Shown: positions 2,823-18,709 of the stretch, in pieces
Numbering within the stretch: position 1 is the first letter of the stretch
How the letters are laid out: each line of letters starts with the position of its first letter
Source of the DNA: Candidatus Butyricicoccus avicola
GTDB taxonomy: Bacteria > Bacillota > Clostridia > Oscillospirales > Butyricicoccaceae
Reading direction: 5' to 3'
Assembly: GCA_019119435.1 (NCBI GenBank)
Contig: DWWZ01000010.1
Span: forward strand, 1-42,863
DNA: 42,863 nucleotides
Notes under the pieces: generated by a model
Databases searched by the model: none
What the model saw: the letters and a program-made list of their open reading frames with translations, nothing else
Told to the model about the DNA's origin: nothing
Position numbers and translations under genes: made by a program

Positions 2823-3518
2823 ATGCAAAAATCTTGGAAAGCGGCCTGCGTGCTGCTGATAACGGCACTGGCCGGTTTTGCCTTTGCCGCCTGCCAGCCA
2901 CAGGAGACCGAACCGCCCGCCGCGCAGCCCGAACAGGACCGAGCACTCGTCGCGTATTTTTCGCTGTGGGACAACGCCGGACAGCCGGGGTACGCCGATG
3001 CACAGACTTCCGCGAGTGTGGTGGTGCATAACGGGCAGTCGGTGGGCACGACTGGCTATATCGCCCGGCTGATCGGGGAGATGACAGATGGGGAGCTGTA
3101 TCCCATCCGTACCGAGCAGACCTATCCGGCGGACCGGCAGTCGGTTGAGATCTACAACCGGCAGAGCAGCGCGCGCCCGGCACTGGCCGGAGAGCCTCTG
3201 GACGTGGAGACGTACGATGTGGTCTATCTGGGATATCCGATTTGGAATGACCAAATTCCGGGCGCGGTCTACAGCTTTTTGGAACGCTATGACCTGTCAG
3301 GCAAAACCATTGTGCCATTTTGTACCTATGAGGAGGGCACAACAGACAGCACCTACGCCGCGATCGCCGCAGCGGAGCCGGAGGCAGAGGTCATACAGAG
3401 CGGGTTTTTCATCCTGCCAGAGGAGATGCCTGAGGCGCGGGCTTATCTCTCAGTATGGCTGGAAGGGCTGTATACACTGGAGGCGCAGCCGCTGGGATCG
3501 GGGCAGGTCCAGGGCTGA
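2823..3518 (+). CDS. Flavodoxin-family lipoprotein
   Basis: Signal peptide with lipobox (FAFAAC), LVAYFS strand, DVVYLGYPIWNDQIPGAV flavodoxin core. Confidence 0.82.
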   Translation: MQKSWKAACVLLITALAGFAFAACQPQETEPPAAQPEQDRALVAYFSLWDNAGQPGYADAQTSASVVVHNGQSVGTTGYIARLIGEMTDGELYPIRTEQTYPADRQSVEIYNRQSSARPALAGEPLDVETYDVVYLGYPIWNDQIPGAVYSFLERYDLSGKTIVPFCTYEEGTTDSTYAAIAAAEPEAEVIQSGFFILPEEMPEARAYLSVWLEGLYTLEAQPLGSGQVQG

Positions 3519-3557
3519 GAGGAGAAAGATTGACAGCAGACAAGGAGGATAAGACAG

Positions 3558-4232
3558 ATGAAACACAACGGCAATAAGCGGGCAATCCATATTTCCCTGA
3601 AACTGAGTCTGTCCCTTGGATTTTCCACGGGCAAAAAGCGGCAGGAGCGCGAGGTCGACTTAGCGCTGCCGCGGGAGTTGCCGCCGGAGCAGGAGAGCGG
3701 GGAACCGCCGCAGGCGGCACAGGAATTGCCGCAGGAGCAGGACGCGGCGCAGCCGCCGCGTGCGGCGCTCGTTGCCTATTTCTCGCGGATGCAGGAAGCA
3801 CCGGAGGACGAGTATGTGCCAGACCCGGTGACCGCATTGGCCCAGTGGATTGCTGCGCTGACAGGCGGGGACATCCATGCCATCTATGCCGAGGAAGTGT
3901 CCCTGGACAAGGAGCAGGGCCGCACGGTGCTTGCCGAGCCGGCTGTGCCCATGGAGCAGTATGATGTGGTCTTTCTGGGTTATCCGGAATGGTGGGACAG
4001 CTGCCCGGCCGAGGTGCGCAGCTTTTTACAGACGCATGACGTTTCTGACAAGCAGATTGCACCGTTCTGCGTGACCAACGGGGCGTTTGCCGGCGGCGCG
4101 GATGCGCTGCGGGAGATCCGTCCGGACGCACAGGTGGGCGAGGCGCTGTGCCTGACGGCCGAAGCGGTATCCGGCCAGACCGAGCAGGCACAGGATGCGC
4201 TGCGGGCCTGGCTGGGGCGGCTGGGATACTGA
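3558..4232 (+). CDS. Flavodoxin-like protein (divergent paralogue with Pro/Glu/Gln-rich N-terminal segment)
   Basis: RAALVAYFSRMQEAPEDE...YDVVFLGYPEWWDSCPAEV; SD aaggagg upstream of ATG. Confidence 0.7.
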   Translation: MKHNGNKRAIHISLKLSLSLGFSTGKKRQEREVDLALPRELPPEQESGEPPQAAQELPQEQDAAQPPRAALVAYFSRMQEAPEDEYVPDPVTALAQWIAALTGGDIHAIYAEEVSLDKEQGRTVLAEPAVPMEQYDVVFLGYPEWWDSCPAEVRSFLQTHDVSDKQIAPFCVTNGAFAGGADALREIRPDAQVGEALCLTAEAVSGQTEQAQDALRAWLGRLGY

Positions 4233-4334: not shown

Positions 4335-5534
4335 TTAGTTGGTGTAGTTATCGAAATAGCCTTGGATATAGACGATGGGCGTGCCCTTGTCGCCCGAGCC
4401 CGAGGTCAGGTCGGCCAGCGAGCCGATCAGGTCGGTCAGACGGCGCGGCGTGGTGCCCTGGGTCACCATGGTGCCCTTGAGGCTCTGCGCCTTTTCGTCC
4501 TTTTCGTGGATGTAGCCCTTGATGGCCTGCTTGAGCGCGTCGCCCTTGAGGTCGGCGAAATCATTGTCCGCCAGATACTTGAGCTTGACCTCGTTGGGGG
4601 TACCCTCGAGGCCGGGGGTGTATGCCGGGGAGACGACCGGGTCGGCCAGCTCCCAGATCTTGCCGACCGGGTCCTTGAACGCGCCGTCGCCATAGATCAT
4701 GACTTCGACCTGCTTGCCGGTCCGTTCCCGCATCATTTGCTGGATGCGGGCAACCATCTCGTCACAGTGGATGGGGAACAGCTTGACGGTCTCCTCGGTC
4801 GCCTTGTTGGAGCCCAGAAGGCCAAAGCGGTCGTTGTAGCCCGAGCCGTCGATGCTCGCGGTCATGATATCGTCCAGCGTGCACACGACCTCGGCGCCTG
4901 CCTTTTGCAGGATACGCTTGGTGCGCGCCCGGGTGTGGATATCGCAGGCCAAGACGGTTTTTGTGTAGTCCAGGATGGCACGCGGGTTGTTGGCAAAGAT
5001 GATCTCTGCCTCAGCGCCGGCCTGTTCGATGATCTGCTGATAATAGGAGACGTAATCTACGCCGGTAAAGACATGGGTCCGGTTGCCAAAATGCGCACGG
5101 TACTGCGCAAGGCTGAGCACATCGCTCCAGGGGTTGACGCCCTGTTCATCTACAAGATCGGGGTCGATCAGATGGTTGCCGACCTCATCGGACGGATAGC
5201 TGAGCATGAGCACGACCTTTTTGCAGCCCATGGCGATGCCCTTGAGGCAGATGGCAAAGCGGTTGCGGCTGAGAATGGGGAAAATTACACCCACGGTGCC
5301 GCCGCCGAGCTTGGCGCGGACATCGGCCGCGATGTCCTGCACGCGCGCATAGTTGCCCTGGGCGCGCGCCACGACGGCCTCGGTCACGGCGATGACGTCG
5401 CGGTCCTCCACGGAGAACGGCGCGCTCTGGGCGGCGGCCATGACCGAATCAACCACGATCTGCGCAAGGTCGTCTCCTGCACGGATGATAGGGGCACGGA
5501 TGCCGCGTGATACTGTACCGATCATTCTTTCCAT
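4335..5534 (-). CDS. CofE-like (coenzyme F420-0:L-glutamate ligase family) protein
   Basis: 399 aa; GTVSRGIRAPIIRAGDDL, DVIAVTEAVVARAQGN, LSRNRFAICLKGIA, IYGDGAFKDPVGKIWELADPVV motifs. Confidence 0.72.
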   Translation of the reverse strand: MERMIGTVSRGIRAPIIRAGDDLAQIVVDSVMAAAQSAPFSVEDRDVIAVTEAVVARAQGNYARVQDIAADVRAKLGGGTVGVIFPILSRNRFAICLKGIAMGCKKVVLMLSYPSDEVGNHLIDPDLVDEQGVNPWSDVLSLAQYRAHFGNRTHVFTGVDYVSYYQQIIEQAGAEAEIIFANNPRAILDYTKTVLACDIHTRARTKRILQKAGAEVVCTLDDIMTASIDGSGYNDRFGLLGSNKATEETVKLFPIHCDEMVARIQQMMRERTGKQVEVMIYGDGAFKDPVGKIWELADPVVSPAYTPGLEGTPNEVKLKYLADNDFADLKGDALKQAIKGYIHEKDEKAQSLKGTMVTQGTTPRRLTDLIGSLADLTSGSGDKGTPIVYIQGYFDNYTN

Positions 5535-5769: not shown

Positions 5770-6888
5770 ATGGAGCCTGCAAAGGTATATTTTGCGGATT
5801 TCCGCACGACCCTGACCGAAAATCTGCAGCAGAAGCTGTGGCGCCTTCTAGATAAGGCCGGCATGGGCACAATCGATTTTGACAAGAAGTACGCTGCGAT
5901 CAAGCTGCATTTTGGCGAGCCGGGCAATCTGGCTTTCCTGCGCCCCAACTGGGCCAAGACTGTGGCCGATTACGTCAAGGCGCACGGCGGCAAGCCGTTC
6001 CTGACCGACTGCAACACGCTCTATGTGGGCGGGCGCAAGAATGCACTCGATCACATGGATTCGGCTTACTTAAATGGCTTTTCGCCCTTTTCGACCGGCT
6101 GCCATGTGATCATTGCGGACGGACTCAAGGGGACGGACGAGACCTATGTGCCGGTCGAGGGCGGCGAGTACATTAAGGAGGCCAAGATTGGCACGGCCAT
6201 CATGGACGCCGATGTCCTGATCTCGCTGACCCATTTCAAGGGCCATGAGAACACCGGCTTTGGCGGCGCACTCAAGAACATCGGCATGGGCTGCGGCTCG
6301 CGCGCGGGCAAGATGGAGATGCACAACGCGGGCAAGCCGCGCGTCCATCAGAAGCGCTGCGTGGGCTGCGCGATGTGCACGCGCGTATGCGCGCATGGGG
6401 CGATCACCGTCCAGGGCCGCAAGGCCAGCATTGACCATACCAAGTGCGTCGGCTGCGGCCGCTGCATCGGCATGTGCCCGCATGACGCCATCGCCTGCGA
6501 TTACGACGAGTCCAACATCGTCCTCAACCGCAAGATCGCCGAGTACACCAAGGCGGTCGTGGACGGCCGTCCATGCTTCCATATCGCACTTGTCATCGAC
6601 GTGTCGCCCAACTGCGACTGCCACGCCGAGAACGATGTGCCGATCGTGCCGAACGTTGGCATGTTCGCCTCGTTCGACCCGGTCGCGCTCGACCAGGCCT
6701 GTGCGGACGCGGTCAACCAGATGCCGGCGAACCCGCACTCGGCGCTCTTTGACCACGATGCACCAAAGGCGGAGGACGCGCATGACCACTTCCACGCCGC
6801 CCATCCGGAGACCAACTGGCAGAGCGCGCTCGAACACGGCGAGAAGATCGGCATCGGTACGCGTCAGTACACGCTCATCCGCATTTAA
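5770..6888 (+). CDS. DUF362 domain protein with two [4Fe-4S] ferredoxin motifs
   Basis: 372 aa; IKLHFGEPGN, SLTHFKGHENTGFGGALKNIGMG, CVGCAMCTRVCAHGAI and CVGCGRCIGMCPHDAI. Confidence 0.88.
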   Translation: MEPAKVYFADFRTTLTENLQQKLWRLLDKAGMGTIDFDKKYAAIKLHFGEPGNLAFLRPNWAKTVADYVKAHGGKPFLTDCNTLYVGGRKNALDHMDSAYLNGFSPFSTGCHVIIADGLKGTDETYVPVEGGEYIKEAKIGTAIMDADVLISLTHFKGHENTGFGGALKNIGMGCGSRAGKMEMHNAGKPRVHQKRCVGCAMCTRVCAHGAITVQGRKASIDHTKCVGCGRCIGMCPHDAIACDYDESNIVLNRKIAEYTKAVVDGRPCFHIALVIDVSPNCDCHAENDVPIVPNVGMFASFDPVALDQACADAVNQMPANPHSALFDHDAPKAEDAHDHFHAAHPETNWQSALEHGEKIGIGTRQYTLIRI

Positions 6889-7495: not shown

Positions 7496-8503
7496 TCAGC
7501 AGATGCGCGGCAGCTGCAAGCCGGACAGCTTGGACAGGATGCGCTTGCCGCCAATGGCGGTCTTGAGCAGCACATGGCCGGGCATTTCACCGGTGACCGT
7601 ACCGATCCGCGCCGCCTGTTCGCCGCCCGGTGTCCGGCGGATGGCGGCCAAAACAGCATCGGCGCAGGCAGGGTCGCAGACGGCCAGCATGCGCCCCTCA
7701 CAGGCACAGTAGAGCGGGTCCAGGCCCAAAAGGTCGCAGGCCGACTGCACGGCGGGATCAATGGGCAGCGCACCCTCGTCCAGTGTGATGGAAAAAGGCG
7801 TTCCCTCGGTGAACTCGTTCAGCGTGGTGGCCACGCCGCCCCGGGTCGGATCGCGCAGTATACGGATGCCGGACGGGGCGGCATTCCGTGCCGCGGACGC
7901 AATCTCGTGCAGCGGCCGGCAGTCCGATTGCAATGGGCCGCCTGCTTCCAGAAGGCCGGCACGGGCCAGCATGACCGCTGCACCGTGGCAGCCAATGCTG
8001 CCGCTGACGAGCACGGCGTCGCCCGGCTGGAAGCCCTGCCTGCCGGGCAGCACCGCGCGCTGGAACCCGATGCCGGCGGTGTTGATGTAAATGCCGTCGC
8101 CCTTGCCGGACTCGACGACCTTGGTGTCGCCGGTCACGATGGACACGCCGGCCGCTTTGGTCTGGTCGGCAATGGAGCGCACGATGCGCTTGAGGTCGGA
8201 CAACAGGAAGCCTTCCTCTAGGATGAGGGCAAGGCTGAGATAGCGCGGTTCGCCGCCCGCCATACACAGGTCGTTGACCGTGCCGCAGACGGCCAGCTTG
8301 CCGATGTCCCCGCCGGGGAATTCCCACGGAGAGACCACAAAGCTGTCGGTCGAAAAGATCAACTTGGGTCCGCCGGCGAGGACCGCGCCGTCTCCCAGTT
8401 CAGCGAGCGCAGGATTGTCAAAAGCGGGAAGTAGGATGGACTGGATGAGGTCGGCGGTCTTTTGCCCGCCGCTGCCATAGTCCAGTGTGATTTGCTCGTC
8501 CAT
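7496..8503 (-). CDS. hypE: Hydrogenase expression/formation protein HypE
   Basis: ITLDYGSGGQKTADLI start, DPTRGGVATTLNE, C-terminal PRIC ending with the substrate cysteine. Confidence 0.95.
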   Translation of the reverse strand: MDEQITLDYGSGGQKTADLIQSILLPAFDNPALAELGDGAVLAGGPKLIFSTDSFVVSPWEFPGGDIGKLAVCGTVNDLCMAGGEPRYLSLALILEEGFLLSDLKRIVRSIADQTKAAGVSIVTGDTKVVESGKGDGIYINTAGIGFQRAVLPGRQGFQPGDAVLVSGSIGCHGAAVMLARAGLLEAGGPLQSDCRPLHEIASAARNAAPSGIRILRDPTRGGVATTLNEFTEGTPFSITLDEGALPIDPAVQSACDLLGLDPLYCACEGRMLAVCDPACADAVLAAIRRTPGGEQAARIGTVTGEMPGHVLLKTAIGGKRILSKLSGLQLPRIC

Positions 8504-8509
8504 GGATCG

Positions 8510-9637
8510 TCACCTCTCTATGTTTGCTTGCGGCCCAGGCGCTTTGGCGCCGTATTGATACCAGGCTGCGCACGCGCCCTCCCCGGATACCATGCACGGG
8601 CCAACCGGGTCCTGCGGGGTGCAGGCCCGGCCAAACAGGGGACAGGCGGATGGATGCAGCACACCGCGGATGACCTGGGCGCAGCGGCAGCCGGGCGGCT
8701 CGACGTCCGGCCCTGGGCGCAGGCCGAACTTCTGGGCAGCGTCCCAGCGCGCATACGCTGGCCGGATGGCGTAGCCGCTTGCCGGGATGTGACCGAGGCC
8801 GCGCCAATCGGATGGCGCCGGGGAAAATACCTGCTCGATGAGGGATTTTGCCGCGGGATTGCCGTCCGGCTGCACCAGCCGCGTGTACTCGTTTTGAAGC
8901 GCAGGCCGGCCCTGGGCAAGCATCTGCGCCAGCATCAGCACCGAATAGAGCAGGTCGGCCGGCTCAAAGCCGCTGACGACGCCGGGCAGCCGGTAGTCGT
9001 CCGGCAGGAAGGAAAATGCGTTTGCGCCCAGGATGGCTGCGACGTGGCCGGGGCACAGGAACCCGTCCACGGCAAAGTCGTCGGCCTCGATGAGCGCGCG
9101 CAGGGCCGGCTCGGTCTGCTTGAGCAGGCATAAGACCGAAAAATTTGGTATGCCGCGTGCGGCGGCCTCCAGGATGCAGGCGGCTGTGCCGGGGGCAGTG
9201 GTCTCAAACCCCACGCCCAGAAAGATGACCTCGGTCTCGGGGTGCGCCGCCGCCGCTTCCAGCGCATCCATGGGGGAATATACCGACAGCACATGGCCCC
9301 CGGATGCGCGCCGCCGCAGCAAACTGTCACCCCGGGCGGAGCCCGGGACGCGCAGGAGATCGCCGTAACTTGCGACCAGAATGCCGGGCTGCTGCGACAG
9401 GGACAAGATGCAGTCGATCACCTGCGCGGGCGTCACGCAGACCGGGCAGCCCGGGCCAGAGAGCAGGGTCACGGACGGGGGCAGGAGGCTCCTGAGCCCG
9501 CTGCGGGCAATGGCCATGGTGTGCGTGCCGCAGATTTCCATCAGGCGGATGGGACCGGACCGGTCGGTATACACCCGGATCTTGTCCAAAAGCGCGGGCA
9601 CATCGCCGGGATTTTTAAAGTAACTGTCATAGAGCAT
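8510..9637 (-). CDS. hypD: Hydrogenase formation protein HypD
   Basis: LMEICGTHTMAIARSGLRSLLPPSVTLLSGPGCPVCVTP and GFETTAPGTA. Confidence 0.95.
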   Translation of the reverse strand: MLYDSYFKNPGDVPALLDKIRVYTDRSGPIRLMEICGTHTMAIARSGLRSLLPPSVTLLSGPGCPVCVTPAQVIDCILSLSQQPGILVASYGDLLRVPGSARGDSLLRRRASGGHVLSVYSPMDALEAAAAHPETEVIFLGVGFETTAPGTAACILEAAARGIPNFSVLCLLKQTEPALRALIEADDFAVDGFLCPGHVAAILGANAFSFLPDDYRLPGVVSGFEPADLLYSVLMLAQMLAQGRPALQNEYTRLVQPDGNPAAKSLIEQVFSPAPSDWRGLGHIPASGYAIRPAYARWDAAQKFGLRPGPDVEPPGCRCAQVIRGVLHPSACPLFGRACTPQDPVGPCMVSGEGACAAWYQYGAKAPGPQANIER

Positions 9638-9845
9638 GGCGAAGCTCCTCTAAAAGTGCGATGTTTTCCTGCGCCTCGGCGTCGGACAGTTTTTGGATGG
9701 CAAACCCGGCATGTACCATGACATAATCCCCGGGTTTTGCGTCCGGTACGAAGTCGATGCGGACGGTCTGGCGCAGGCCGCCGGCCTCGCACCGGGCAGA
9801 GGTCCCGGTGATCTCAGAGATCTGCATAGGCATTGCTAGGCACAT
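9627..9845 (-). CDS. hypC: HypC/HybG/HupF family hydrogenase chaperone
   Basis: MCLAMPMQI N-terminus, PGDYVMVHAGFAIQKL. Confidence 0.95.
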   Translation of the reverse strand: MCLAMPMQISEITGTSARCEAGGLRQTVRIDFVPDAKPGDYVMVHAGFAIQKLSDAEAQENIALLEELRHAL

Positions 9846-12162
9846 GGTTCATACTCCTTTTTTTGCGGGCAATGGCAAGCTGGCCAAGGCATAGGCCCTC
9901 GTCGTTTGTCGAGACCCGGTGATGCGTATAGACGGAAAAACCGTTTTGCTCCAGCAGGGCGGTGACGCCGGCGAGCAGAAAGCGGTTCTGAAAGACGCCG
10001 CCGGACAGGACGACCGGCAGGCGATCTGGGTTGAGTGTCTGGCACTGGTCCAGCGCCAGGCAGCACAGCGTTGCCAGAAAGCGCAGCGCGATGCGGCCGC
10101 TGTCCTGTCCGGCGGCAAGGTCGTCCAAGATGGCGGCGATGAGCGGGCGCGTGTCGAACACGCGCACCGCCTCCTGGGGATAAAATGTGAGCGGATAGGC
10201 GAGCGCGGCGCACGGGATGCCCAGCGCCTCCGGTGTTTCCACTGGCGAGAGCGCCTCCAAAAGTGCCGCGCCTTCGCCCTCATAGTCGGTCACGGCGCGG
10301 CCGGTCAGCAGCGCGCAGACGCCGTCAAACAGCCGGCCGATGCTGCTCGCCGCCGGGCAGAGCTGCGGCGCGGAACAAAGCAGACGCGAGAACCTCTGCC
10401 GCGCAGGGGCGGGCAGAGGGACCGCCTCCATACGCGCCGGCGCTGCGTCCTGGACCAAGGCCAGGGCAATGCGGCCGATCTCGCGGATGGCGCGGTCGCC
10501 GCCCGGCAGCCGGACAGCGCGGACCGAGCCTGCCCGCACGAAGTGCGTGAGGTCGCCCCGCAGGAACTCCCCGCCCCAGATGGTTCGGTCGAGGCCGAGG
10601 CCGGTGCCGTCCCAGATGATGCCGAAACAGTGCGCATCCAGCCCATTGTCCGCCATGCAGGAGGCCATATGCGCCCAGTGGTGCTGTACCTGTAGGAGCG
10701 GGACCCCCTGCGCCCGGGCGCGTCGGACGGCTTCCTGGCTGGATAGATAGTCGGGATGCAGGTCACACACATAGAGCGAGGGCTGGGCGCGGAACAGGCG
10801 GGCATAGGTATCCATGGCCTGGGTGTAATGTGCAAAGGTCTCGGCGTTTTTGAGGTCGCCGATGTAGGGGCTGATGAAGGCCTGCTGTCCCTTTCCCAGG
10901 GCGAAGGAGGCCTTTTGCTCGGCGCCCATGGCAAGAATGCCATCGGCATCGGCCTCCAGTGCAAGCGGGCGCGGGGCATAGCCCCGGCTGCGGCGCAGGA
11001 AATAGGGCGCGCCGCGCCAGACCGCGATCAGGGAGTCGTCACAGCGGTTTTGGATGGGCCGGTCATGCAGCAGAAAGCCGTCGGCCACACCGTCCAGCGC
11101 GTCCAGCGCCGCCTGGTTTTCGGTCAGGACCGGGCAACCGGATAGGTTGCCGCTGGTCATGACTAAGGTGTCCGGGCCGCCATATGTGCCGTCGATAAGC
11201 AGGGTGTGCAGCGGAGAATAGGGCAGCATGACGCCCAGGCGTGCGCTGAAGCTGAGCGCGGCGAAGGCCGTGCGGTCACACTTTTGCAGCAGCACAATGG
11301 GCCGGGCCGGGCTTTGCAGAAGGCGGATCTCATCCGGGTCAGGCCGGCAGATGGCATGCACGGCGTCCAGGGAGCGGCACATAACCGCGAGGGGCTTGTC
11401 CGCACGGCGTTTTTTGCGCCGCAGCCGCTGCACAGCCCGGGTATTTTTGGCATCACAGGCCAGATGGATGCCGCCGACCCCCTTGACCGCGAGGATGCCG
11501 CCGCCTGCGAGCAGCGACTGGGCCAGGCGGAAGGCGCCGTCCCCACGCACCGTGCTGCCGTCCCGCCCGGCAAAAAAGACCTGCGGCCCGCAGGCCGGGC
11601 AGCAGTCTGGCTGGGCGTGATAACGCCGGTCGCGGATGTCACGATATTCGCGCGCACAGGCCGGGCACATGGAAAAGGACTGCATCGTCGTCCGGTTCCG
11701 GTCGTAGGGCAGCGCACGGATGATGGTATAGCGGGGGCCGCAGTTCGTGCAATTGATGAAGGGATAGCGGTATCTGCGGTCAGAGGGTGTATAGAGTTCG
11801 GCTTCGCAGTCCGCGCACATGGCGATATCGGGCGAAACCAGCGTGGAGCCCGCATCTAAGCTGCTCTCGAGGATGGTAAACTCATGCGGAAGCCCTTCAG
11901 GCGGCGGCGCGCACGCCTGCACCTCGACCGACTGTACGGCCGCCATGGGCGGCGGCGAGGACGAGAGCGTGTCCAAAAAGCGCGTCAACGCCTCCTGCGG
12001 CCCGGATAACAGCCCTTCCAGGCCGGAGGAGGTGTTGCGCACCCAGCCGCAGATCCCGTTTTGCACAGCTAGGCGGTGCAGAAACGGGCGGAAGCCCACG
12101 CCCTGGACAATGCCCGTGACCGTCAGCCGGACACAGGATGTTCCCTTGCCCGGGTGTGTCAT
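9814..12162 (-). CDS. hypF: Carbamoyltransferase HypF
   Basis: 782 aa; acylphosphatase domain GIVQGVGFRPFLHRLA, CADCEAEL..CTNCGPRYTI and CPAC..CPACGP zinc motifs, VLSGGVFQNRFL. Confidence 0.95.
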   Translation of the reverse strand: MTHPGKGTSCVRLTVTGIVQGVGFRPFLHRLAVQNGICGWVRNTSSGLEGLLSGPQEALTRFLDTLSSSPPPMAAVQSVEVQACAPPPEGLPHEFTILESSLDAGSTLVSPDIAMCADCEAELYTPSDRRYRYPFINCTNCGPRYTIIRALPYDRNRTTMQSFSMCPACAREYRDIRDRRYHAQPDCCPACGPQVFFAGRDGSTVRGDGAFRLAQSLLAGGGILAVKGVGGIHLACDAKNTRAVQRLRRKKRRADKPLAVMCRSLDAVHAICRPDPDEIRLLQSPARPIVLLQKCDRTAFAALSFSARLGVMLPYSPLHTLLIDGTYGGPDTLVMTSGNLSGCPVLTENQAALDALDGVADGFLLHDRPIQNRCDDSLIAVWRGAPYFLRRSRGYAPRPLALEADADGILAMGAEQKASFALGKGQQAFISPYIGDLKNAETFAHYTQAMDTYARLFRAQPSLYVCDLHPDYLSSQEAVRRARAQGVPLLQVQHHWAHMASCMADNGLDAHCFGIIWDGTGLGLDRTIWGGEFLRGDLTHFVRAGSVRAVRLPGGDRAIREIGRIALALVQDAAPARMEAVPLPAPARQRFSRLLCSAPQLCPAASSIGRLFDGVCALLTGRAVTDYEGEGAALLEALSPVETPEALGIPCAALAYPLTFYPQEAVRVFDTRPLIAAILDDLAAGQDSGRIALRFLATLCCLALDQCQTLNPDRLPVVLSGGVFQNRFLLAGVTALLEQNGFSVYTHHRVSTNDEGLCLGQLAIARKKRSMNHVPSNAYADL

Positions 12163-12815
12163 CGCGCCGCACGTGCGATGTGGCCGGATAGGAAATCCGC
12201 AAGCGCGTCTATCCCGTCGCCCGTCCGGCTGCTGACACGGAAGAGGGGCGCTGACGGATTGACCGCCTCGTAGTTGGCGCAGACGCGGGCCTCATCAAAA
12301 TCGAAGTAGGGCAGCATGTCATATTTATTCAGCACCAGGCAGTCGGTATCGGTGAACATGAGCGGGTATTTTTCCACCTTGTCATCGCCCTCGGGAATGC
12401 TCAGGAGGGTCATGCGCAGCGATTCGCCGATGCGGAACTCGGCCGGGCACACAAGGTTGCCGATGTTTTCCACAAAGATGACGTCGAGCCGATCGAGCGG
12501 CAGCGCGGGCAGGATCTTCTGGATGCTCATGGCCTCGATATGGCAGGCACCGTCGGTGTTGAGCTGCACGGTGGGGACGCCCAGCGCAGCGATGCGCTCG
12601 GCGTCCACCTGCCCGGCGATATCGCCCTCGATAACGCCCACCCGGAAGTTCGCCTTCAGGCGTTGGATGAGTGCGGTGATGAGGCTGGTCTTGCCCGCGC
12701 CCGGGCTGCCCATGACGTTTATCATACAGATATGCTGGCCGGCCAGCGTCTGCTTGACCGCATCGCTTACGTCCTCATTCCAATCCATGACCTGGTGCAG
12801 TACTTGGATCTCCAT
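12159..12815 (-). CDS. hypB: Hydrogenase nickel incorporation GTPase HypB
   Basis: GSPGAGKTSLI P-loop, VIEGDIAGQVDAERI, FVENIGNLVCPAEF; no His-rich N-terminus. Confidence 0.95.
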   Translation of the reverse strand: MEIQVLHQVMDWNEDVSDAVKQTLAGQHICMINVMGSPGAGKTSLITALIQRLKANFRVGVIEGDIAGQVDAERIAALGVPTVQLNTDGACHIEAMSIQKILPALPLDRLDVIFVENIGNLVCPAEFRIGESLRMTLLSIPEGDDKVEKYPLMFTDTDCLVLNKYDMLPYFDFDEARVCANYEAVNPSAPLFRVSSRTGDGIDALADFLSGHIARAAR

Positions 12816-13158
12816 TGCTGTCTACCTCCATGCTTTTGATATAGAATTCCTTGCCGGACAACAGCTTGAGCCGCAGGCTCCCGCAGTAGGGGCACTGCAA
12901 ATGGTGGGGCGTAATCTCGCCCTGCCGCCCGCAGTCCCGGCACAGGACCTGGACCGGAAGAAACTCGGCTGTGATCTGTGCCCCTTCGGCGATTGTCCCC
13001 TCAGAGAGCATGTCCAGGTAGACCTGGATGCAGTCCGGGACGATCCCGCGCAGCCGTCCGATACACAGATGAATTTTTCGGATCTTGCCAGCGCCCGCCG
13101 CCTGCGCGCGCTGGATACAGTCGGCAAGCAGGTGCTCGGTGATGCTGAGTTCGTGCAT
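12775..13158 (-). CDS. hypA: Hydrogenase maturation nickel metallochaperone HypA
   Basis: MHELSITEHLL start; CRDCG...CPYCGS zinc site. Confidence 0.93.
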   Translation of the reverse strand: MHELSITEHLLADCIQRAQAAGAGKIRKIHLCIGRLRGIVPDCIQVYLDMLSEGTIAEGAQITAEFLPVQVLCRDCGRQGEITPHHLQCPYCGSLRLKLLSGKEFYIKSMEVDSNGDPSTAPGHGLE

Positions 13159-13318
13159 AAAAAAAACCTCCCCGCCCATCGCCCGGCCCGCATGGGGCCG
13201 CAAAGCGTGGAGCACGATCATTCAACAACCTACATTTTAGCATATTTTCTGCGGGATGGGGTAGAGAAACTTCAATGCTACAAAATATGTGAAAATTTCT
13301 CCGGGGTACTTGTAAAAT

Positions 13319-13347
13319 TTGCACAAAAGGATTATAACAAATATAAT
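13319..13347 (+). promoter_or_regulatory. Candidate promoter of the ech operon
   Basis: TTGCAC - 17 nt - TATAAT, 66 nt upstream of echA ATG. Confidence 0.7.
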
Positions 13348-13412
13348 AGGTTATTTCTTCTTTATCAGCATGCGCTGTGACAATATGGGAAAAGTGATTG
13401 GAAGGAGGATTC

Positions 13413-15305
13413 ATGGAAATGATACCATTACTGATCGGGATACCGGCCGTACTCGCGGTGTTATTTCAGGTTATCCGAAACGAAAAAGCGAGGGGCTACG
13501 TGGTCTATGCAGGCGCGGGTGTCCTGATGCTCACGACGGTCATTTTCATCTGGCGATGGATCGCGGACGGTGCGCAAACCTGGACATTTTACCCACAGAC
13601 CGAACTGATCGACCACCTGATGACGGTGGGCGACATCGTGCTCATGTGCCTGATTATCTACCTGAGCGTTAAATACAAGAAGATACTGCCCATCCTGCTG
13701 ACCGTCTCCCAGACGGCGCTGCTGCTTTATACGGAGTTTACAGCCGAAGTGGTGGAAGGCCCGCACATGATGGTGGATTGGCTGACCATTTTGATGTGCA
13801 TCATCATCGCCTTCATCGGCGGCTTCATCTGCATCTATACAGTCGGCTATATGAAGGGCTATCACGCGCACCACACCGATGTGCAGGACCGGCAGCCGTT
13901 CTTCTTTTCCATGCTGTTCTTGTTCCTCGCGGCCATGTTCGGCCTGGTCCTGTCGCAGAATCTTATCTGGATCTACTTCTTCTGGGAGATCACGAGCGTG
14001 ATTTCCTTCCTGATGATCGGTTACACCCGCACGCCGGAGGCCGTGGGGAACAGCTTCTGTGCCCTGTGGATGAACCTCCTGGGCGGCCTGGGCTTCGCCG
14101 TGGCCATTGCGCTCATGGCGCAGATCTATGGCACGGTGCAATTGACCGATGTCGTACAGATCGGCGCGCTGCTGCCGCTCATGTGCCTGGCGCTTGCCGG
14201 CATGACCAAGTCGGCCCAGCTCCCCTTTTCCACCTGGCTTTTGGGCGCGATGGTCGCGCCGACGCCGTCCAGCGCGCTCCTGCACAGCGCCACTATGGTC
14301 AAGGCCGGCGTCTATCTGCTCATCCGCATCTCGCCGGCCCTTGCCGGCAACCTGGTCGGCATCATCGTCTCCAGCATCGGCGGTTTTACCTTCATCATGG
14401 CCAGTATGATGGCAATTGCGCAGCACGACGCCAAAAAGGTGCTGGCCTTCTCGACCATCTCCAACCTCGGCCTGATCGTCGGCTGCGCCGGCATCGGCGC
14501 GGAGGAGACGGTCTGGGCGGCGATCTTCCTGATGATCTTCCACTCGGTCAGCAAATCTATGCTGTTCCAGTCGGTCGGCGCAGCCGAGAATACGCTGGGC
14601 TCACGTGATATCGAGGACATGCACGGCCTCATCATCCGCGCACCCAAGCTGGCGTACATCATGGGCATCGGCATCGCCGGCATGTATCTGGCCCCCTTTG
14701 GCATGCTGATCTCCAAATGGGTCGCGCTCAAAGCCTTCGTCGATTCCGGCAACTTTGTGCTCGTGCTGTTCATCGCCTATGGCAGCGCCACGACTATGTT
14801 TTACTGGACCAAGTGGCTGGCAAAGCTGCTCTGTTACCACATCCCGCGCCAGAAGACACAGGACCTGACGCACAGAGATGAGTACGTCTCCATGTCGTTC
14901 CACGCGGTCAGTATGCTGCTGCTGTGTCTGCTGCTGCCCCTCGTGGCGGTCGGCGTGGTCAACCCGATCGTGCGCAACCTGTTCGGCAACTCGACCGACG
15001 TGCTGTCCATGAGCGTTCTGACGACCATGGCGATCATGCTGGTCTCGATCTTCATCGTGCCGGTCGTCATGTTCTTCATCAGCCGGCGGTCGCATACCGA
15101 GCTGGTACCGATCTATATGAACGGCATCAACGAGGGGGACAACCGGTTCTTCCGCAATAGCTACGATGAACAGGAACACCTCTACCTGAGCAACTGGTAT
15201 CTCAGGCGGGAATTTGGCCGCGGCCATCTCCGTGTTCCCTCCATCATTCTCGCGGCGGCGGTGTTGGTCCTGGGCTTCTGTCTGGTAATAGGAGGCGTGT
15301 CATGA
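13413..15305 (+). CDS. echA: Ech-type hydrogenase membrane subunit, NuoL/MrpA-like (EchA)
   Basis: 630 aa proton-pump family protein (WEITSVISFLMIGY, AQLPFSTWLLGAMVAPTPSSALLHSATMVKAGVYLL); SD gaaggagg. Confidence 0.88.
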   Translation: MEMIPLLIGIPAVLAVLFQVIRNEKARGYVVYAGAGVLMLTTVIFIWRWIADGAQTWTFYPQTELIDHLMTVGDIVLMCLIIYLSVKYKKILPILLTVSQTALLLYTEFTAEVVEGPHMMVDWLTILMCIIIAFIGGFICIYTVGYMKGYHAHHTDVQDRQPFFFSMLFLFLAAMFGLVLSQNLIWIYFFWEITSVISFLMIGYTRTPEAVGNSFCALWMNLLGGLGFAVAIALMAQIYGTVQLTDVVQIGALLPLMCLALAGMTKSAQLPFSTWLLGAMVAPTPSSALLHSATMVKAGVYLLIRISPALAGNLVGIIVSSIGGFTFIMASMMAIAQHDAKKVLAFSTISNLGLIVGCAGIGAEETVWAAIFLMIFHSVSKSMLFQSVGAAENTLGSRDIEDMHGLIIRAPKLAYIMGIGIAGMYLAPFGMLISKWVALKAFVDSGNFVLVLFIAYGSATTMFYWTKWLAKLLCYHIPRQKTQDLTHRDEYVSMSFHAVSMLLLCLLLPLVAVGVVNPIVRNLFGNSTDVLSMSVLTTMAIMLVSIFIVPVVMFFISRRSHTELVPIYMNGINEGDNRFFRNSYDEQEHLYLSNWYLRREFGRGHLRVPSIILAAAVLVLGFCLVIGGVS

Positions 15306-16165
15306 AGAGTATCGTTTTTGTTGCGGCCTATCTGGTATTTGCGCCCTTCCTGGGCGGGCTTCTGGACGGCGTGGACCGCATCATCAGCGCGCGCATGCAG
15401 CGCAGGAAGGGCCCGGTCCTGTTACAGCCGTTCTATGACATTGGCAAACTGCTCTCCAAAGAGCAGATTGCCGTCAACAAGGTGCAGCTCCTGCTCAACC
15501 TGAGCTATCTGGTCATCCTGATGATCGCAGGCAGCCTGCTGTTTGGGGGCGCAGACCTGCTGATGGTGCTCTTTATCCTGAGTACAGCTGACATGTTCCT
15601 GATTATGGCGGCCTCGAGCGACTCCTCCCCCTACGCCAACATGGGCGCCAACCGTGAGATGCTGCAAATGATGGCCTACGAGCCGCTGACGCTGCTCGTC
15701 GCGGTCGGGTTCTATCTGACAACCGGCTCGTTCCATGTGTCCGACATTGTAGCGGCGGACGTCAGCGCCGTTGTTTGGATGCCCGGCCTGCTGGTGGGCT
15801 TCATGTTCACGGCCGCTATCAAATTCCGCAAATCTCCCTTTGACCTGTCCACCAGCCACCATGCGCACCAGGAGATGGTCAAGGGCCTGACGACCGAGAT
15901 GTCGGGTACGACCCTGGCCATTATGAATATCGCCGAATACTATGAGATGGTCCTGCTGCTGGGCATCTGCTGCCTGTTCTTTGTCAACAGCACCTGGTGG
16001 AGCTGGATCGTCGCGGTCGTGCTGTGCGGCGTGATCTTCTTCCTCGAGACGCTGTGGGACAATGTCAGCGCGCGCGTCAAGTGGAAGAACGTGTTGTATA
16101 GCTGCTGGGCTGTGACGCTGGTGGCTGGCGGCGTGAACATCCTGTTTTTGATGCTGGACAAGTAG
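15302..16165 (+). CDS. echB: Ech-type hydrogenase membrane subunit, NuoH-like (EchB)
   Basis: GVDRIISARMQRRKGPVLLQPFYDIGKLLSKE; SPFDLSTSHHAHQEMVKGLTTEMSG. Confidence 0.9.
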   Translation: MKSIVFVAAYLVFAPFLGGLLDGVDRIISARMQRRKGPVLLQPFYDIGKLLSKEQIAVNKVQLLLNLSYLVILMIAGSLLFGGADLLMVLFILSTADMFLIMAASSDSSPYANMGANREMLQMMAYEPLTLLVAVGFYLTTGSFHVSDIVAADVSAVVWMPGLLVGFMFTAAIKFRKSPFDLSTSHHAHQEMVKGLTTEMSGTTLAIMNIAEYYEMVLLLGICCLFFVNSTWWSWIVAVVLCGVIFFLETLWDNVSARVKWKNVLYSCWAVTLVAGGVNILFLMLDK

Positions 16166-16181
16166 AGGGAGGTAGCGGACT

Positions 16182-16619
16182 ATGAACAAAGTATCCAAAT
16201 CGCCGTGGCTGCTCCACTATGACGCCAGCAGCTGCAACGGGTGTGACATCGAGGTGCTGGACTGCCTGACGCCCAAATATGACATCGAACGGTTCGGCAT
16301 CATCAATACGGGCGACCCGTTCCAGGCAGATATCCTGCTCATTACAGGCGGGGTCAACAGCCAGACAGCTCCGGTCGTCAAGCAGATTTACAGCCAGATG
16401 GCCGAGCCCAAGGTGGTTGTGGCGGTCGGCATCTGCGCATGCACGGGCGGCGTATTTAAAGAGTGTTATAATATCAAGGGCGGGATCGATACGGTCATCC
16501 CGGTGGACGTCTATGTGCCCGGCTGTGCCGCGCGCCCGGAGTCCATCATTGACGGCGTCGTCCGGGCGCTCCAGGTGCTCGACGACAAGCAGGCCGCCTT
16601 GAAAAATAAGGAGAGGTGA
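16182..16619 (+). CDS. echC: Ech-type hydrogenase small subunit, NuoB-like (EchC)
   Basis: DASSCNGCDIEVLDCLTP; VGICACTGGVF; VYVPGCAARPESI. Confidence 0.92.
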   Translation: MNKVSKSPWLLHYDASSCNGCDIEVLDCLTPKYDIERFGIINTGDPFQADILLITGGVNSQTAPVVKQIYSQMAEPKVVVAVGICACTGGVFKECYNIKGGIDTVIPVDVYVPGCAARPESIIDGVVRALQVLDDKQAALKNKER

Positions 16620-16624
16620 CAGCG

Positions 16625-16972
16625 ATGGATAACCGGAGCGAGATCCGGAAGATCACGATGGCTGAGTTCTTTTCGGCGGTCGTACACATGAAGACCGAGG
16701 GCTGGCGGCTGGCCCAGATCTGTGCGAACAGTGTCCCGCAGGGATATGAGATGAGCTATTCCTTCTGCAAGGGATACCAGATGGTGACGCTCCGCCTGGA
16801 GGTTGGGCCGGACGAAGAGGTGGCGAGCATTACGCAGATCTATCCCTGCGCGTTCTTGCAGGAAAATGAGGCCAAAGAACTGTTCGGCGTGCAGATCACC
16901 AAGATACAGCCCGATTACCGGGATAAGCTGTACCGGATTGAGGAGAGCACGCCGTTCCGCAAAAAGGAGTAA
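16625..16972 (+). CDS. echD: Ech-type hydrogenase subunit, NuoC-like (EchD)
   Basis: Position in operon; QIYPCAFLQENEAKELFGVQI and PDYRDKLYRIEE NuoC-like segments. GTG at 16616 is an alternative start. Confidence 0.82.
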   Translation: MDNRSEIRKITMAEFFSAVVHMKTEGWRLAQICANSVPQGYEMSYSFCKGYQMVTLRLEVGPDEEVASITQIYPCAFLQENEAKELFGVQITKIQPDYRDKLYRIEESTPFRKKE

Positions 16973-16980
16973 GAGGGAAC

Positions 16981-18060
16981 ATGTCAACGAGAAGTATTGT
17001 ACCGTTTGGCCCGCAGCATCCTGTCCTGCCGGAGCCGGTGCATCTGGATCTGGTGCTGGAGGATGAGATGGTGGTCGATGCGGTCCCGAGCATCGGATAT
17101 ATCCACAGGGGCCTGGAAAAGCTGGTCGACAAGCGGGACTTTAAACAATATGTATACATCGCCGAGCGCGTGTGCGGTATTTGCAGCTGCGGGCACGGGC
17201 TGGGCTACTGCCAGGCGGTGGAGCAGGTCATGGGCATTGAGGTGCCCGACCGGGCACGCTATCTGCGCACAATCTGGATGGAGATGAGCCGCGTACACAG
17301 CCATCTGCTATGGCTCGGCCTGTTGGCGGACGCCATGGGGTTTGAAAGCCTGTTTATGGAGAGTTGGCGCCTGCGCGAAAAAATATTGGATCTATTTGAT
17401 GAGACGACCGGCGGCCGCATTATCCACTCGGTCAACCAGGTGGGCGGCGTGCAGAAGGACATGGATCAGGGCATGCTGGACGATATCCTGCGTGTGACCC
17501 GTGATCTGGAAAAGGACATGAAGCCGGTCATCGATACCTTTTTGCAGGACTATACCGTACAGAGCCGCCTCAAAGGGGTCGGCGTGCTCAGCAAGGAGGA
17601 CGCCATCGGCCTTGGCGCGGTCGGGCCGATGCTGCGTGCGAGCGGGGTTTCCTATGACGCGCGCCTTTTGGGCTATGCGGCCTACGGCGAACTGAGCGTA
17701 GAGCCTGTCCTCTCCACAGAGGGGGATTCCTACGGGCGCTGTGCGGTACGCCTTCAGGAGATCCTCCAGTCCTTTGCCCTCATCCGCGAGGCCATTGGCA
17801 AGATCCCCGCCGGGCCGGTCAGCGCGCCGGTCAAGGGCAACCCGGACGGCGAATACTTTTTCCGCATCGAACAGCCCAGAGGTGAGGCGATCTATTATGT
17901 CAAGTGCAACGGCACCAAGAATTTGGAACGCTTCCGCCTGCGCACACCGACGACGAGCAATATCCCGCCGATGGTGCAATTACTCAAGGGCAGCCAGCTG
18001 GCCGATGTGCCGCTCCTAATCTTGACCATTGACCCCTGTGTCAGCTGCACCGAGCGGTAA
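16981..18060 (+). CDS. echE: Ech-type [NiFe]-hydrogenase large subunit, NuoD-like (EchE)
   Basis: Ni-ligand motifs ERVCGICSCGHG (N-terminal) and DPCVSCTER* (C-terminal); FGPQHPVLPEPVHLDL start. Confidence 0.93.
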   Translation: MSTRSIVPFGPQHPVLPEPVHLDLVLEDEMVVDAVPSIGYIHRGLEKLVDKRDFKQYVYIAERVCGICSCGHGLGYCQAVEQVMGIEVPDRARYLRTIWMEMSRVHSHLLWLGLLADAMGFESLFMESWRLREKILDLFDETTGGRIIHSVNQVGGVQKDMDQGMLDDILRVTRDLEKDMKPVIDTFLQDYTVQSRLKGVGVLSKEDAIGLGAVGPMLRASGVSYDARLLGYAAYGELSVEPVLSTEGDSYGRCAVRLQEILQSFALIREAIGKIPAGPVSAPVKGNPDGEYFFRIEQPRGEAIYYVKCNGTKNLERFRLRTPTTSNIPPMVQLLKGSQLADVPLLILTIDPCVSCTER

Positions 18061-18082
18061 GCGGCGGAATGGAGTGGAAATC

Positions 18083-18637
18083 ATGGATAAGACGAGAATG
18101 TTTACCTTTGCCGGCCGGGTGCTCAAAAATCTGTTTCACAAGCCGGCCACGGTCCAGTATCCGTTCCAGCCGGCCAACTACCCGGAACGGATGCGCGGGC
18201 ACGTTGTGATTCGGATCGAGGACTGTATCAGCTGTGGCCTGTGCATGCGCGCCTGCCCATCCGGGGCGATCGCGGTCGACCGCCAGGCGGGGACCTGGAA
18301 GATCGCGCGGTTTGACTGCGTGCAGTGTGGAAGCTGCGTGTTGGCCTGCCCGAAGAAGTGCCTGCACATGGAGAAAGGGTACACAGCGCCCGACATACAA
18401 AAGAAGACCGAGACCTTCACAAAGCCTGCCGCACAGGCCGCGCCGGCAGCCGGCGGCGGCAAACCGGCTGCCGATGCCGACAAGTGCGTATACTGTACGC
18501 TGTGCGCAAAGAAATGTCCACAGCAGGCCATCACGGTCGACCGCGCGGCCAAGATCTGGAAGCTGGACGCAGAGAAGTGCGTGGGCTGTGGGATCTGCGC
18601 GGGTGCGTGCCCTAAAAAGGCGATCGAGATGAAATAA
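18083..18637 (+). CDS. echF: Ech-type hydrogenase ferredoxin subunit (EchF) with four [4Fe-4S] motifs
   Basis: CISCGLCMRACP, CVQCGSCVLACP, CVYCTLCAKKCP, CVGCGICAGACP; Ala/Pro-rich linker between halves. Confidence 0.88.
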   Translation: MDKTRMFTFAGRVLKNLFHKPATVQYPFQPANYPERMRGHVVIRIEDCISCGLCMRACPSGAIAVDRQAGTWKIARFDCVQCGSCVLACPKKCLHMEKGYTAPDIQKKTETFTKPAAQAAPAAGGGKPAADADKCVYCTLCAKKCPQQAITVDRAAKIWKLDAEKCVGCGICAGACPKKAIEMK

Positions 18638-18644
18638 TGCGTGC

Positions 18645-18686
18645 AAAAAACCGTACCAGACGCATGCGTCTGGTACGGTTTTTTTG
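18645..18686 (+). terminator. Rho-independent terminator of ech operon
   Basis: Perfect palindrome AAAAAACCGTACCAGACGCATGCGTCTGGTACGGTTTTTT. Confidence 0.9.
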
Positions 18687-18709
18687 TGCTGGGCCGGGAA
18701 TATACGCAA

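Follow-up and report, generated by a model that had tools for sequence, protein, structure and literature searches.

A four-cluster EchF with a tethered second two-cluster module in the Ech hydrogenase operon of Candidatus Butyricicoccus avicola

Fermenters of the gut and rumen dispose of electrons by ferredoxin-driven H2 formation. Ech hydrogenases, additional Ech subunits and polyferredoxin wires have all been described before. The Ech2 enzyme of Thermoanaerobacter kivui, for which seven [4Fe-4S] clusters were predicted and iron was measured, includes a separate subunit, HycB2 (PMC9356269). It resembles the Ech complex considered here in carrying more clusters than the minimal form, whereas its extra HycB2 is a protein of its own and the extra module described here is fused to EchF. 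The polyferredoxin FwdF holds eight clusters and is described as a wire (PMC12517254); like MvhB, it shares with our EchF the serial two-cluster modules, but both polyferredoxins are archaeal, serve other enzymes and lack the EchF anchor. RnfB, too, brings clusters of the ferredoxin type to a ferredoxin-dependent complex that pumps ions, although that complex is a ferredoxin:NAD+ oxidoreductase and the RnfB anchor domain is unrelated. A rumen butyrivibrio study that counts EchF genes contains neither "4Fe" nor "iron-sulfur" in its text (PMC4478896). In the open-access literature, which leaves most subscription journals and all bioRxiv preprints outside, we found no account of an EchF with fused extra modules and no biochemistry of a four-cluster EchF, so fused EchF modules appear to be new.

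The window analyzed here is a stretch of 42,863 nucleotides (contig DWWZ01000010.1 of Candidatus Butyricicoccus avicola). It contains a complete echABCDEF operon of six contiguous genes on the plus strand (13398-18637), and the expected complex-I-like Pfam domain was found in all six products, which are NuoL-, NuoH-, NuoB-, NuoC-, NuoD- and NuoI-like, respectively. The membrane part comprises the antiporter-like EchA (13398-15305; Proton_antipo_M) and EchB (15302-16165; NADHdh). EchC (16182-16619; Oxidored_q6) is the small subunit with the cysteines of the proximal [4Fe-4S] cluster, and EchD (16616-16972; Complex1_30kDa) precedes the large [NiFe] subunit EchE (16981-18060). EchE retains both NiFe-binding CxxC motifs, RVCGIC and the C-terminal DPCVSC. 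Among solved structures, the MBH large subunit MbhL (6cfw_L) matches it best, over residues 7-359, nearly the full length. The maturation genes hypABFCDE lie divergently upstream on the minus strand (7496-13164, assigned by profiles and sequence): hypA (12775-13164) and hypB (12159-12815) were recognized by Pfam/NCBIfam, while hypF (9814-12162), hypC (9627-9845), hypD (8510-9637) and hypE (7496-8503) were named from sequence. A PHROGs search gave no useful match. With its six-gene operon, NiFe motifs and the full hypABCDEF set, the locus belongs to the Ech-type (group 4) energy-converting [NiFe] hydrogenases and, judged by its sequence, encodes an enzyme of this type with a second module tethered to EchF. 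A search with EchE of genome G000 returned no match in four other genomes of its genus, and its nearest EchE relatives, 82-85% identical, occur in other families; this distribution suggests that the operon as a whole was gained horizontally.

The sequence-only reading had described an EchF-like subunit with four cluster motifs, two in a tethered second module, and the open reading frame, motif and domain analyses agree with it. The gene at 18083-18637 (+) is an intact echF with exactly these boundaries, encoding 184 amino acids with four CxxCxxCxxxC(P) motifs arranged as two two-cluster modules, as read from sequence motifs and Pfam. Since classical EchF has exactly two such motifs, the window protein is a variant of it. 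An N-terminal anchor (residues 1-40, LKNLFHKPAT..YPFQPANYPERMRGH; 18083-18202) is kept in two- and four-cluster EchF alike (16 of 16 alignment rows). It is followed by module 1, the ancestral two-cluster domain (residues 41-97; 18203-18373), an Ala/Pro/Gly/Lys-rich linker that is the least conserved part of the protein (residues 98-130; 18374-18472), and module 2, the extra two-cluster domain with a net charge of +4 (residues 131-184; 18473-18634). Directly after the stop codon comes a strong stem-loop with a U-run behind it (18651-18688, +; -32.5 kcal/mol, z -6.5), a likely operon terminator, which marks echF as complete and as the last gene of its operon.

The similarity of the window EchF to Pyrococcus MBH MbhN (6cfw_N) and to E. 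coli HycF (7z0s_F) is confined to the half that holds the anchor and module 1. Fold and sequence searches agree in relating the first half to the input-side subunits HycF, MbhN and NuoI. The two-cluster clostridial EchF shares the anchor, module 1, the position directly after echE and often an Ala/Pro-rich tail, but lacks module 2, its tail stopping where the linker would enter that module. An AlphaFold model showed two ferredoxin folds with a pLDDT of about 77-87 (77-86 in module 1), joined by an unstructured linker (pLDDT below 50 at residues 118-125); the relative placing of the modules carries no meaning, as the model was built from 16 sequences and reached a pTM of 0.50. The flexible linker noticed in the sequence-only reading, exact in its quoted residues and in those of both halves, is thus disordered in the model as well.

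We then surveyed cluster counts among relatives, using EchE as bait in three surveys and reading EchF just downstream. Among 107 EchE-EchF pairs, 82 had a two-cluster EchF, with both motifs intact in 81 of them and a cysteine lost in one, confirming two clusters as the norm. Four clusters were found in 21 pairs, a share that overstates their frequency because the four-cluster query itself was used to find 13 of the loci (those from genome_contigs); six clusters occurred once and eight clusters three times. The four-cluster design therefore recurs beyond the window, for example in the named strains Lachnoclostridium sp. An169 (L022) and Clostridium sp. Marseille-P3244 (L009). Of the 15 close relatives surveyed in the order of the window, counting the window itself, 8 exceed two clusters, and in the other two surveys, where seven matches were left out of the EchF reading, only four EchFs did so (three four-cluster proteins from one genus and one six-cluster protein). 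EchFs with eight motifs (387 and 420 aa) were located at L041 2587-3747, L042 2587-3747 (-) and L044 2608-3867 (-), and the one with six motifs (249 aa) at L086 2600-3346 (-), minus-strand positions of L042, L044, L086 and L126 being counted on the reverse complement. The six- and eight-cluster operons read at length are otherwise ordinary echA-F operons with hyp genes alongside. When 16 genomes from the order of the six-cluster form were searched for its relatives, only G707 itself gave a match. The two-cluster EchF at L126 2588-3013 (-; G1039) has a Trp in place of a first-motif Cys (CIGWGMC), reflecting either an error or a lost cluster.

A gap-free alignment of the two modules of the window EchF spans 47 residues, 51% of them identical. 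The alignment score of 136 lies 6.3 standard deviations above the mean of 63.5 (sd 11.5) for shuffled sequences in which all Cys and Pro were held fixed, a value not attained in any of 2000 shuffles. Module 2 shows 60-66% identity with the nearest extension modules from six- and eight-cluster EchFs, and up to 69% with those of an EchF-like protein that has eight clusters and is encoded beside a more distant group 4 hydrogenase (L158). In a module tree, whose 50 columns give weak resolution, the first modules grouped together (98/80) and the soluble ferredoxins separately (100/96). A recent duplication of module 1 within the window clade was weakly rejected (AU p 0.027, 50 columns), and a single clade of all extension modules was not (p 0.3). 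The internal duplication proposed from the sequence alone thus holds as far as the modules are homologous. A recent origin within this lineage fares worse, because module 2 has less in common with module 1 than with extension modules found in other hydrogenases (64-69%) and recent duplication is weakly rejected: on these comparisons, either the copying event is old or module 2 was acquired. In the eight-cluster protein at L044, two inner modules adjoin the first modules in the tree, so local duplication may also have occurred. The L158 locus (7583-16695; G080, genus g47) encodes an EchE-like protein (41% identical), has hyp genes inside the cluster and carries its eight clusters on an EchF-like polyferredoxin.

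In a tree of EchE (359 columns), the window falls into a clade of 21 rows (100/100), of which 19 have four-cluster and two (L020 and L033) two-cluster EchFs. These two are best read as putative losses; downstream of the two-cluster gene in L020, whose contig, unlike that of L033, runs on far enough for the comparison, no leftovers of module 2 were seen in three frames. The remaining four-, six- and eight-cluster forms lie in a second, separate group, mixed with two-cluster ones. A single origin of all multi-cluster EchFs was rejected on this tree (p 2.7e-5), in a test for which the group was named after the tree had been seen and in which horizontal exchange of modules would give an equal signal; this leaves separate gains or module exchange between operons.

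In genome G298, EchD (L038 857-1498) bears at its C terminus a two-cluster ferredoxin module resembling the one on EchF of its own operon, with 83% DNA identity to module 2 of that EchF over 215 bp, and EchD of the congener G145 is without a module. By this comparison, the module has been copied onto EchD, and grafting is seen directly in the sequence. We consider it possible, but hold only tentatively, that a mobile two-cluster extension module circulates among gut-clostridial group 4 hydrogenases, where it would be copied between operons and subunits (EchF, EchD), extend the input end from two to eight clusters and tune the electron-delivering partner.

Purifying selection acts on module 2 as strongly as on module 1 (dN 0.066 and dS 1.12, compared with dN 0.063 and dS 0.78), and the linker evolves more freely (dN 0.171). 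The net charge of module 2 averages +4.0 across 21 proteins, and that of the soluble ferredoxins -7.6 across 30 genomes (range -11 to -4); in the window genome, module 2 has about +4 to +5, depending on the module cut, and the ferredoxin -5. The opposite charges fit docking of ferredoxin on module 2, which is plausible on this basis, and speak against the module being a ferredoxin substitute. Since module 1 is basic too (mean +2.2 to +2.8), charge does not single out module 2 for docking and the argument is suggestive only. The extension modules of six- and eight-cluster EchFs are not consistently basic (-5 to +5).

Based on these features, module 2 probably acts as a tethered relay and docking unit and lengthens the input wire of Ech, a role toward which we lean with some reserve. 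Reduced soluble ferredoxin, being acidic, would dock both on module 1 and on the basic module 2, and module 2 would hand electrons to both clusters of module 1, from where they would pass through EchC to the NiFe site; H2 would be made there and protons pumped. The tether would widen the capture radius, and the module would add two electron-holding sites. Module 2 would then represent a family of extension modules that have repeatedly been grafted onto the input subunits of group 4 hydrogenases, two clusters at a time (2, 4, 6, 8). Because clade members L020 and L033 are without it, the module is not essential. The Ech input end seems to grow in such steps, with up to three extra modules in relatives. 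It also illustrates how electron input changes in complex-I-like machines: the core stays as it is and modules are added. The cluster counts form a natural length series on one conserved enzyme core, partly in named gut strains, with which one can test how far docking area and wire length determine the speed of ferredoxin-driven H2 formation and its affinity.

Module 2 could instead serve mainly as an electron store, a capacitor that buffers one-electron deliveries for the two-electron reaction and not a docking site. This is unlikely in our judgment: the range of cluster numbers from two to eight in two-cluster steps, which has a parallel in the eight-cluster polyferredoxin wire FwdF (PMC12517254), would suit such a store, but the strong conservation of residues other than Cys suggests specific surfaces. 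Somewhat less likely still is a built-in ferredoxin in place of the soluble carrier, which would let pyruvate:ferredoxin oxidoreductase or a similar donor reduce the hydrogenase directly. The tethered two-cluster fold predicted by the model is compatible with this idea, and the flexible linker would permit a swinging arm. Replacement had been raised by the sequence-only reading beside docking, but a canonical soluble ferredoxin is kept in 32 of 32 Ech genomes tested, with EchFs of two to eight clusters, including a 56-aa protein in the window genome. Moreover, module 2 does not belong with the soluble two-[4Fe-4S] ferredoxins, being basic where they are acidic and grouping apart from the clostridial ferredoxins (100/96). 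The window genome also encodes an RnfB-like protein (L006), so ferredoxin probably has another membrane outlet.

A neutral fusion, in which the module was copied and kept without functional consequence, would agree with the patchy presence of the module and the two-cluster state of L020 and L033, but we regard it as very unlikely given that the dN/dS of module 2 is about 0.06, as low as in module 1, and that all four motifs are kept in 21 species. The chance that a frameshift or assembly artefact fused two genes, which would have undone the sequence-only reading, is negligible, since the same single four-motif frame occurs in independent assemblies of 20 other species, named strains included (13 species in genome_contigs and seven genomes from whole-genome surveys).

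Elsewhere in the window, a DUF362 protein with a two-cluster ferredoxin insert is encoded at 5794-6888 (+). Its gene adjoins an F420-0 gamma-glutamyl ligase-like gene (4335-5534, -) and two flavodoxin-like genes (2823-4232, +).
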